From assembly GCA_902625885.1 (NCBI GenBank), contig CACODE010000012.1:1-42236 (forward strand): 42,236 nt of DNA, given 5' to 3'. The notes under the pieces are model-generated. The model made no database searches. It worked only from the letters and a program-made list of their open reading frames with translations, and had not been told where the DNA came from. Of the stretch, positions 1,013 to 3,168 are shown in pieces. Within the stretch, counting starts at the first letter, position 1, and the number at the start of each line of letters is the position of its first letter. The position numbers and the translations under genes were made by a program. Origin of the DNA: an uncultured Candidatus Poseidoniales archaeon. GTDB lineage: Archaea; Thermoplasmatota; Poseidoniia; Poseidoniales; Poseidoniaceae.

Positions 1013-1118
1013 CGAAGTCAAATACCCTAGAATTCCCAAAGCATTGGATTTGAGCACCGTAAAGGCAGGGTTTGACTGGCCTCCCATTTTGCGTGAACCC
1101 TTGTTCCTTGTGTTCTTC

Positions 1119-1126
1119 ATATACTC
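1119..1126 (+). promoter_or_regulatory. TATA box for the ubiquitin-like gene
   Basis: CATATACT lies about 40 bases before the ATG at 1159. This spacing would start a transcript near 1145-1150, leaving a leader just long enough for the ribosome-binding site AGGTGG (1147-1152), which is six bases before the ATG. The binding site fixes the start at 1159 rather than any codon upstream. The rest of 1013-1158 shows no gene. Confidence 0.45.
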
Positions 1127-1158
1127 TCATCCACTCATACTCCAAAAGGTGGAAAAAA

Positions 1159-1590
1159 ATGACCAACGAAACGATGTTTGACGTAGAAATTGCCGATGCT
1201 TCTGGACACTCAACGGTCCAGATGTCCCAACGTGAAATCGCTGAGAAGGCGAGCCAGACCCAAGGCTCTTGGGTGTTCGTGAACGACCAGCTTGTGAGCA
1301 CCAGCGACATTGCTGACATGAACCTCGCTGCCGGAAGCCGTGTTCGCCTGATGCCCGGTCTTGTGGGCGGAAAAGAAGACCCGACCTTCGAAGTTGAAAT
1401 CGCCGACGCTTCCGGACACTCAACGGTCCAGATGACGCAGCGTGAACTTGCAGACAAGGCGAGCCAGACCCAAGGCTCTTGGGTGTTCGTGAACGACCAG
1501 CTTGTGAGCACCAGCGACATTGCTGACATGAACCTCGCTGCTGGAAGCCGTGTTCGACTGATGCCCGGTCTTGTGGGCGGCCAGTGCTGA
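1159..1590 (+). CDS. Tandem ubiquitin-like (beta-grasp) protein, two domains each ending in Gly-Gly
   Basis: This 143-residue protein consists of two nearly identical domains, residues 7-71 and 77-141, joined by Lys-Glu-Asp-Pro-Thr. Each has the order expected for a ubiquitin/MoaD beta-grasp fold: a strand-turn-strand (FDVEIAD, STVQM), a helix (QREIAEKAS), a strand (WVFVNDQLV), a DIADMNLAAGS segment, and a last strand running into MPGLVGG. In ubiquitin and archaeal SAMP/MoaD proteins the C-terminal Gly-Gly is the residue pair activated by an E1-like enzyme. Here the second Gly-Gly is followed only by Gln-Cys, and the first by the linker, so mature single units would need proteolytic trimming. 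No E1, E2, JAMM protease or MoaE gene lies in the window. Conjugation is therefore inferred; a sulfur carrier or plain binding module remains possible. A good ribosome-binding site sets the start. Confidence 0.7.
   Translation: MTNETMFDVEIADASGHSTVQMSQREIAEKASQTQGSWVFVNDQLVSTSDIADMNLAAGSRVRLMPGLVGGKEDPTFEVEIADASGHSTVQMTQRELADKASQTQGSWVFVNDQLVSTSDIADMNLAAGSRVRLMPGLVGGQC
1177..1581 (+). repeat. Direct tandem repeat, 210-base period, within the ubiquitin-like gene
   Basis: Bases 1177-1371 and 1387-1581 encode the two domains and align without gaps at a 210-base offset. Bases 1246-1331 and 1456-1541 are identical over 86 consecutive positions. Differences cluster in the first third of the unit, where synonymous changes such as GAAATT/GAAATC are visible. 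This points to a recent duplication or ongoing gene conversion of the 3' part. Confidence 0.9.
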
Positions 1591-1910: not shown

Positions 1911-3068
1911 ATGACGGTCTGGCTTGAGAAACACAAGCCGGTTCTCTTCGCAGATCTTCTTACATCGACGCATGTCAAGGAATCGCTGACCAACCTCTCG
2001 GTCCAAGCCAACCCACCACATCTTCTTCTTTCAGGTGGTGCCGGCTGCGGCAAAACCGCCGCAATACATCTGGTCTGCCGCCAAGTCCTCGGTCCGTCCT
2101 GGCGTTCAACGACCCACGTTCTCCAAGCAAGGGACCTGAGCAAAACATCAGGAGCGATGGCCAAATTCGAAGCCTTTCTTCGGCCTGAAGGATCGGGGTC
2201 CGAAGACACGTTGGCTGGCAGGACGAGTCTTGATGCGTTCGACCATAACATCAGCCTGACCTCAGAAACTTCCCCTCCTCCCGCTGGAGAAGAATCCGCA
2301 CGCCCAGAAGACGGCACATTCGCACCGGTCTCAAGAATCATCGTGATTGAAGACGCCGATTATTTGGGTCATGCACGCCAGTCGTACTTGCGTCGGATGA
2401 TGGAGGAAAGCAGCCGCAGCGCTCGTTTTGTGTTTACAACACACACCCCGTCAAGAATCATAGAGGCGCTTCGAAGTCGGACGCAGCATGTTCGCATGCC
2501 ATCGTTGAATCGTTTAATGATCGAGCAACGGTTGGAATCCATCAGTGAGCAAGAAAATCTTCAGCCCACGATTGGTGTTCTTGGTGACGTTGCGCACGTG
2601 GCGAACGGGAACCTGAGAAAAGCCATCTTCACGCTTCAACTTCTTGCACAGCGCCGCCTTCTCGGCGACCGAAAGAACGTCCAACTGCTCATGGCCAACA
2701 GCAGCCGAAGGGAAGCTCAACTGATTCTGGAGGAAGCGCTACGCGGCCGAATTCACGATTGGAAATGGGAACGCCATGGCGAGAAGAACACGCGTGTTCT
2801 GAAGGGCGCCATGGGGGCTTTGGACCAGATGATGCGCACGCATGAATTGGATGGCAGGGGTGTCGTCGATCGCCTCCACCACTTTCTCGTCGCCGGCAGA
2901 ACCCATTATCCTGAGCCATTGCTTGCTAGTTTGTTGGACGTCGTCTCAGCGTGCGACATGCGCCTCCAGCGTTCGGCCCAACAACGGATACAACTGGAGG
3001 AACTTCTTCACCGGATTGCTGAAATTGGCCAACAGCATTTCTCTTCTGCCCCATCGCAACCGTCATGA
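1911..3068 (+). CDS. Replication factor C small-subunit family AAA+ clamp-loader protein
   Basis: The 385-residue protein starts VWLEKHKPVLFADLL, the archaeal/eukaryotic RFC small-subunit opening (RFC box II). Next come PHLLLSGGAGCGKTAA (Walker A, residues 42-49) and RIIVIEDADYL in the Walker B position. The segment ALRSRTQHVRM sits at the SRC arginine-finger motif, and a GNLRKAIFTLQLLAQ segment matches sensor 2. RFC loads the PCNA sliding clamp in an ATP-dependent way. Two key motifs are altered: the usual DEAD is EDAD, and SRC is SRT. There is also an acidic/Pro-rich insertion of about 50 residues before Walker B. It may be a non-catalytic small-subunit paralog, as seen among eukaryotic RFC subunits. 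The tRNA-Arg gene follows 23 bases after the stop. Confidence 0.8.
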   Translation: MTVWLEKHKPVLFADLLTSTHVKESLTNLSVQANPPHLLLSGGAGCGKTAAIHLVCRQVLGPSWRSTTHVLQARDLSKTSGAMAKFEAFLRPEGSGSEDTLAGRTSLDAFDHNISLTSETSPPPAGEESARPEDGTFAPVSRIIVIEDADYLGHARQSYLRRMMEESSRSARFVFTTHTPSRIIEALRSRTQHVRMPSLNRLMIEQRLESISEQENLQPTIGVLGDVAHVANGNLRKAIFTLQLLAQRRLLGDRKNVQLLMANSSRREAQLILEEALRGRIHDWKWERHGEKNTRVLKGAMGALDQMMRTHELDGRGVVDRLHHFLVAGRTHYPEPLLASLLDVVSACDMRLQRSAQQRIQLEELLHRIAEIGQQHFSSAPSQPS

Positions 3069-3091: not shown

Positions 3092-3168
3092 GGGCGTGTA
3101 GCACAGCTGGATAATGCACCGGCCTCCTAAGCCGGAGATCGCGGGTTCGAATCCTGCCACGCCCGCCA
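3092..3168 (+). tRNA. tRNA-Arg (CCT anticodon)
   Basis: A complete cloverleaf is visible. The acceptor strands are GGGCGTG (3092-3098) and CACGCCC (3158-3164). The anticodon stem is CCGGC/GCCGG around the loop CTCCTAA, and the T arm is GCGGG-TTCGAAT-CCTGC. The anticodon at 3126-3128 is CCT, reading AGG. The discriminator is G, and the terminal CCA is encoded. No intron is seen. It lies between the RFC gene and a membrane-protein gene on the same strand. Confidence 0.95.

Follow-up and report, generated by a model that had tools for sequence, protein, structure and literature searches.

Polyubiquitin organisation is usually seen as a eukaryotic trait, and the bacterial operons encoding tandem ubiquitin-like proteins are a little-studied parallel to it. 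The type 6e operons of Iyer et al. (2006, PMC1779556) encode one to three tandem ubiquitin-like domains (Ubls), an E1 without rhodanese, a JAMM/JAB protease, a protein of E2-like fold that in some cases forms a fusion with the Ubl, and a protein with a predicted zinc finger; these operons are given there as bacterial and sporadic, with the JAB usually fused ahead of the E1 and an E2/RWD domain devoid of the cysteine. The polyubiquitin gene itself is called unique in PMC5577197. In Archaea, the JAMM protease CsRpn11 of Caldiarchaeum cuts the 87-aa single-domain CsUb precursor exactly after Gly-Gly (PMC6043591) and, as far as the literature consulted shows, the previously described archaeal ubiquitin systems have single-domain precursors. 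The openly licensed literature yielded nothing on Poseidoniales with a ubiquitin-like system, the one relevant mention of MGII being that of UCH and RING proteins encoded by the genome of a single cell.

The stretch analysed here (the window, 42,236 nucleotides) is contig C12 of a genome that is 70% complete. Near its start lies a tandem Ubl gene, hereafter polyUbl, with the following features in and around it.

1116..1123, + strand: putative TATA-like box TTCATATA
1146..1152, + strand: Shine-Dalgarno-like AAGGTGG, 6 nt upstream of the ATG
1159..1590, + strand: tandem ubiquitin-like protein (polyUbl), 143 aa, ATG to TGA (ORF call, stop codon included)
1177..1371, + strand: Ubl repeat 1 (FDVEIAD...PGLVGG), 65 aa, profile match E 9.8e-31
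1372..1386, + strand: linker KEDPT between the Gly-Gly of repeat 1 and repeat 2, 5 aa, with a predicted (inferred) cleavage at its start
1387..1581, + strand: Ubl repeat 2 (FEVEIAD...PGLVGG), 65 aa, profile match E 6.3e-31
1582..1587, + strand: C-terminal tail Gln-Cys beyond the last Gly-Gly; relatives have tails of 1-6 aa
1714..1863, + strand: neighbouring RPAB4-type RNA polymerase zinc-ribbon subunit, 49 aa (Pfam Zn_ribbon_RPAB4, E 1.5e-6)
1911..3068, + strand: neighbouring replication-factor-C-like (RFC-like) AAA protein (Pfam AAA, E 1.1e-8; RFC lid and RFC C-terminal domains weakly matched)

The sequence-only reading of this locus had described head-to-tail Ubl domains, each ending in LVGG, with a linker and a Gln-Cys tail, and this layout is exact at 1159-1590; tails ending in Cys are frequent within the same genus. 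The gene had also been credited with its own ribosome-binding site, which is borne out by the AGGTG preceding the ATG, invariant in six aligned relatives, and with a strong promoter, which is merely plausible (a TTCATATA-like box is common to four of the six relatives, the remaining two having TTTATTAG at this position). A longer protein starting at TTG 1072 is possible, but the ATG at 1159 is preferred because of the AAGGTGG at 1146-1152 and of conservation. The dN/dS of the gene is 0.05-0.27, with dS near saturation, and homologs with conserved ends in 100 of the 171 genomes of the family rule out a chance tandem or an artefact. The cluster of the RFC-like gene recurs in 62 fetched loci, and the Ubl locus is therefore a stable chromosomal site; the RPAB4-type neighbour belongs to these conserved surroundings and lies outside the Ubl system. 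A tRNA-Arg (CCT) occupies positions 3092-3168 of the window, separating the RFC-like gene from the ORF that follows it.

We read polyUbl, with a probability of roughly two in three, as a polyubiquitin-type precursor serving a Ubl conjugation system of its own, which would rely on JAMM cleavage, an E1 and E2-like transfer. In this scheme, cleavage by the dedicated JAMM protease (JAMM2) behind every Gly-Gly would strip off linker and Gln-Cys tail and set two modifiers free. The E1-like enzyme encoded next to JAMM2 would activate the glycine thus exposed by adenylation and hold the modifier on Cys156, from where it would reach substrates via the UBC-like proteins E2a and E2b; the same JAMM2 would also undo the modification. 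Cleavage, activation, the role of the E2-like proteins, conjugation and substrates are all inferred, in the absence of biochemical or proteomic data. The earlier interpretation as a polyubiquitin-type precursor is thus supported, with its mechanism still inferred and without data on cleavage or conjugates; each of the three conditions under which it was to be given up (fold, Gly-Gly, machinery) turned out in its favour, that on the Gly-Gly with a qualification. The candidate partners are these.

Contig C14 of genome G000, locus L154, 7677-8309: E1-like protein without rhodanese (Pfam ThiF, E 7.5e-19)
Contig C14 of genome G000, locus L154, 8300-8854: JAMM protease JAMM2, the next gene after the E1 (motif alignment)
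Locus L198, this genome: E2a, E2-like protein, 797 aa
Locus L209, this genome: E2b, E2-like protein, cut by the contig end

The bacterial polyUbl operons are the closest known kind of system, from which the archaeal case differs as a variant. The parts list is strikingly similar to that of type 6e, including the tandem Ubl, the E1 without rhodanese, the JAMM, the E2-like candidate and a predicted zinc-finger protein. Unlike type 6e, the present system is archaeal and core in its genus, its JAMM comes after the E1, its E2-like family has an invariant Cys and its Ubl genes have up to four repeats; moreover, there is no Multi-ubiq match (this Pfam family is absent among the matches up to E 1) and the E1 lacks an N-terminal JAB/X fusion, the order in the sister family f2 being E1-JAMM. 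It does not qualify as a member of type 6e. Eukaryotic polyubiquitin (UBB, UBC, UBI4) shares the head-to-tail GG repeats, their variable number, homogenisation within genes and a short tail, whereas here linkers of 3-10 aa replace direct joining, the similarity per repeat is insignificant and the proposed protease is a JAMM. The systems of Caldiarchaeum and Asgard (PMC5654768, PMC6043591) resemble this one in having an archaeal Ubl precursor, cleavage by the JAMM family (inferred here) and E1/E2 partners (the E2 being a candidate here), but CsUb is single-domain, near to eukaryotic ubiquitin and served by a RING E3, whereas polyUbl has two tandem domains distant from ubiquitin, and a RING protein was not identified. 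SAMP/Urm1 of Haloferax and Sulfolobales (PMC4443979) are likewise archaeal beta-grasp modifiers with a terminal GG, E1-like activation and removal by JAMM (inferred in our case), yet they are single domains relying on one shared UbaA-type E1, in contrast to a dedicated E1 and JAMM with an E2-like candidate. Finally, the best curated model for the E1 is the PRTRC ThiF model TIGR03736 (E 5.8e-15), but the protein is not a PRTRC member: it scores 55.3 bits against a cut-off of 144.75, and the other PRTRC models are unmatched.

That polyUbl adopts the beta-grasp fold, as the sequence-only reading had proposed, is borne out by two kinds of evidence. First, ThiS is the only Pfam family above its cut-off in the protein (25.1 bits against 22.5, E 2.5e-5). 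Second, an AlphaFold2 model built with 35 relatives (mean pLDDT 82.8) has the order E-E-H-E-E-H-E in each repeat, and Foldseek places it in the PDB nearest to ISG15 (E 2.6e-6, the best match), the chicken OASL di-Ubl (8.9e-5) and linear diubiquitin (1.5e-4). The pTM of the model is just 0.48, a value in keeping with a flexible linker between the two domains. Likeness to ubiquitin at the sequence level is insignificant per repeat: the single protein searched against PDB sequences gave only an insignificant match to ubiquitin-L40. A profile match to polyubiquitin at E 6e-15 was discarded as evidence, since it sums nine repeats whose individual E is about 200.

The number of repeats ranges from one to four among relatives, as befits a precursor. 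The 103 distinct Ubl genes or fragments, some of them cut by contig ends, comprise 22 with one repeat, 52 with two, 28 with three and one with four, and genes of two, three and four repeats coexist in the same genus. Since the Ubls of genera g7 and g8 and of the sister family f2 are mostly single-repeat, the tandem form looks, by inference, derived from a single-domain ancestor. Linkers vary from 3 to 10 aa among relatives but keep one length inside a genus. Gly closes every one of the 209 full repeats, as GG in 177 and as AG in 32. Loss of the Gly-Gly in homologs had been named beforehand as grounds for refutation: the pair persists in most repeats, it is replaced by Ala-Gly in one subclade, and the last Gly is invariant. 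The exception is a subclade of g5 (L115-L130) to which AG is confined, where ALQAG or ALLAG takes the place of LVGG and both repeats have changed together. In genus g6, three repeats have diverged from one another and each still ends in GG, an argument for use of the internal sites. A degenerate Ubl repeat was also observed in genome G110, where an ORF directly after a three-repeat gene (L090 6154-6798) begins with such a repeat ending in LVGG, followed by about 140 aa without Pfam match.

Repeats of the same gene have not evolved independently over their whole length. For 11 genes of the genus with two repeats each, the repeats of one gene share 96.7% of their nucleotides over codons 29-65, against about 79% between genomes, for the same or the other repeat alike, whereas codons 1-28 show no within-gene excess: identity there is 68.8% inside a gene, and 71.0% and 68.6% for orthologous repeats. 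The two repeats of the window gene differ at 16 of 195 nucleotides, only 3 of these falling in the last 111. Because the excess is restricted to codons 29-65, we conclude that the C-terminal halves of the repeats are kept alike by conversion or exchange while the N-terminal halves stay distinct, a half-and-half pattern that remains unexplained.

Among the competing explanations, the one that survives best, although we regard it as unlikely, is that the two domains stay joined in a double-headed modifier like ISG15 or the bacterial BilA, with only the tail removed and the last Gly-Gly used. ISG15 is indeed the best structural match, the short linkers keep a constant length within genera, and N-terminal halves that differ within a gene (69% identity) could have different jobs. 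Yet the GG or AG end is kept as strictly inside the protein (108/108 internal repeats) as at its terminus (101/101 terminal repeats), and a range of one to four repeats, with single-domain forms in g7, g8 and f2, is ill-suited to a fixed double architecture. The invariant internal sites, the one to four repeats and, as described below, an E1 without rhodanese render both this uncut double modifier and a sulfur carrier less consistent with the data than the polyubiquitin-type precursor.

An E1-like protein and a JAMM protease, which such a precursor would need, are encoded in the genome. A ThiF-rhodanese protein of about 400 aa is found in all family genomes with enough sequence, those without Ubl included, and a second ThiF protein of about 215 aa, lacking rhodanese, is present in most genomes bearing the Ubl. 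In 16 sequences of this E1-like protein, the glycines of the ATP site (GxGGIG nucleotide loop) and Cys156 are invariant; the catalytic role of the latter is inferred. JAMM2 adjoins every E1 copy examined in the fetched loci, and its motif (E...HxHx7Sx2D; E63, H101, H103, S111 and D114) is invariant in 15 sequences, although the gene of this genome has no Pfam match and AMSH is the best, weak, result of a profile search. The suggestion that E1-like and JAMM genes should accompany the Ubl is hence met by a dedicated pair, which co-occurs with it across the 171 genomes. In this genome the Ubl and the E1-JAMM pair lie on different contigs, with E1 and JAMM as separate neighbouring genes; elsewhere the Ubl gene adjoins the E1 (G005, G031, G034, G049, G052, G067, G079 and the sister family f2), and two Ubl repeats share one ORF with the E1 in G132, G133, G169 and G170. 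The f2 loci have a single ORF for E1 and JAMM, next to a Ubl of one domain (L237 857-2104, L238 9619-10929, L240 1203-2669). Several genera have a small helical protein of about 85 aa, without Pfam match, after JAMM2 (L083 8021-8281, L161 7430-7675, L162 6359-6607, L085 7970-8314). A weak Prok-JAB match from the family-wide search was rejected as the partner, for it belongs to a different JAMM of 247 aa that is also present in genomes without Ubl. This second, unrelated JAMM-type protein (L155 7182-7925) occurs in all near-complete genomes of the family, with or without Ubl.

SAMPs and other archaeal Ubls often serve both modification and sulfur transfer, and polyUbl could accordingly be a sulfur carrier of the MoaD/ThiS/TtuB type, forming a thiocarboxylate for cofactor or tRNA thiolation, a possibility made concrete by ThiS being the sole Pfam family above cut-off. 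We find this improbable, more so than the double-headed modifier: the dedicated E1 has no rhodanese, whereas even Ubl-less genomes encode a separate ThiF-rhodanese protein; polyUbl falls far short of the curated ThiS (TIGR01683, 17.7 against 37.45 bits) and SAMP1 (13.8 against 60 bits) models; no sulfur-metabolism gene was recognised beside the Ubl; and neither tandem copies nor E2-like partners would be expected of such a carrier. Conjugation is favoured over sulfur transfer, the dedicated E1 being without the rhodanese domain of the housekeeping E1-like protein.

The weakest link of the proposed conjugation cascade is the E2. Proteins beside compact Ubl-E1-JAMM cassettes have an N-terminal CxxC...CxxC(K/R)PW motif and a C-terminal domain with ICIDI...LPLGDQLASVVLxLAND; this E2-like domain recurs in proteins of 800 aa and 260 aa in most genomes, the present one included. 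It is fused behind two Ubl repeats in G031 (profile E about 1e-16), and a third copy adjoins E1-JAMM in G035 and G095. Across 42 sequences, a single Cys, a Pro and two Asp never vary. The predicted structure (pLDDT 85.7, pTM 0.68) runs from a helix through four or five strands, the last of them stopping right ahead of the Cys, to further helices, an arrangement that matches the UBC fold, and 45 of the 50 best Foldseek matches are E2, UEV or Atg10, but with E of at least 0.06 and TM-scores of about 0.2-0.35. Profile searches of PDB sequences with two alignments (A4, A6) found no E2, and hhalign against three classical E2s gave probabilities of only 0.2-2.8%. On account of these negative results the family is kept as a candidate only, its identity as E2 being unproven. 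Of the E2 and RING genes that the sequence-only reading had suggested looking for, there is an E2-like candidate, and no RING protein was identified.

The components are distributed together. Across the 171 family genomes, the Ubl is found in 100, JAMM in 105 and the E2-like domain in 119; JAMM is present in 92 of the 100 Ubl genomes (Fisher P 5e-24) and the E2-like domain in 99 (Fisher P 8e-26). These P values ignore shared ancestry, and more telling is the joint presence in genera g2, g3 and g4, where the sole genome with Ubl (G005, G031 and G034, respectively) is also the sole one with JAMM. Genus g10 has none of Ubl, JAMM and E2-like domain, and JAMM occurs without detected Ubl in 13 genomes, most of them incomplete, as are most of the metagenome-assembled genomes (MAGs) surveyed. 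Among 390 sampled genomes of the phylum, members of the Ubl family turned up in this one order only. A viral origin is unsupported, two scans of viral contigs being negative.

The least credible alternative is an accessory module of defence or of a mobile element, akin to CBASS Cap2/Cap3 or Bil and moving as a cassette between genomes: the E1 is similar to the corresponding domain in E1-E2 proteins of CBASS (PADLOC, E 3.7e-12) and some genera have compact cassettes beside a sporadic T7-like RNA polymerase, but PADLOC models match none of Ubl, JAMM and E2-like protein, the Ubl is present in 27 of 30 genomes of this genus at a stable chromosomal site and in 17 of 21 near-complete genomes of the family, and the two viral-contig scans found no relative.

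A ubiquitin-style protein-tagging system, undescribed in this group in the openly licensed literature, is thus the likely nature of the polyUbl locus and its partners. The same architecture as in polyubiquitin is core to a marine archaeal genus, with one to four units among close relatives and homogenisation of these units, which gives an opening to study the reasons for such precursors outside eukaryotes, be it for dose, coordinated release or supply under stress. If the E2-like family is real, there would be a conjugation cascade with several candidate adapters in a group not known for one. Only tentatively, and with less confidence than in the precursor itself, one may go further and suppose that repeated duplication of a single-domain Ubl gave an archaeal order a polyubiquitin gene of its own, combined with a dedicated E1-JAMM and a new UBC-like family bearing zinc-finger or other adapter regions, in a full tagging cascade independent of the eukaryotic/Asgard lineage. 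Under this supposition there may be a link between tagging and an unusual transcription system, because in some genera the compact cassette lies beside a T7-like RNA polymerase and a TFB-like zinc-ribbon protein.

As a required part of the Ubl system this polymerase is ruled out, being present in just 14 of the 171 genomes and absent in this one. It is found repeatedly beside compact Ubl-E1-JAMM cassettes together with the TFB-like zinc-ribbon protein, and whether it is cellular or part of an integrated element is open. Such T7-like single-subunit RNA polymerases are encoded in archaeal MAGs at L083 427-3042, L145 307-4149, L236 1263-5495 and L239 7276-11565, with Pfam RNA_pol matches of E down to 2e-55.
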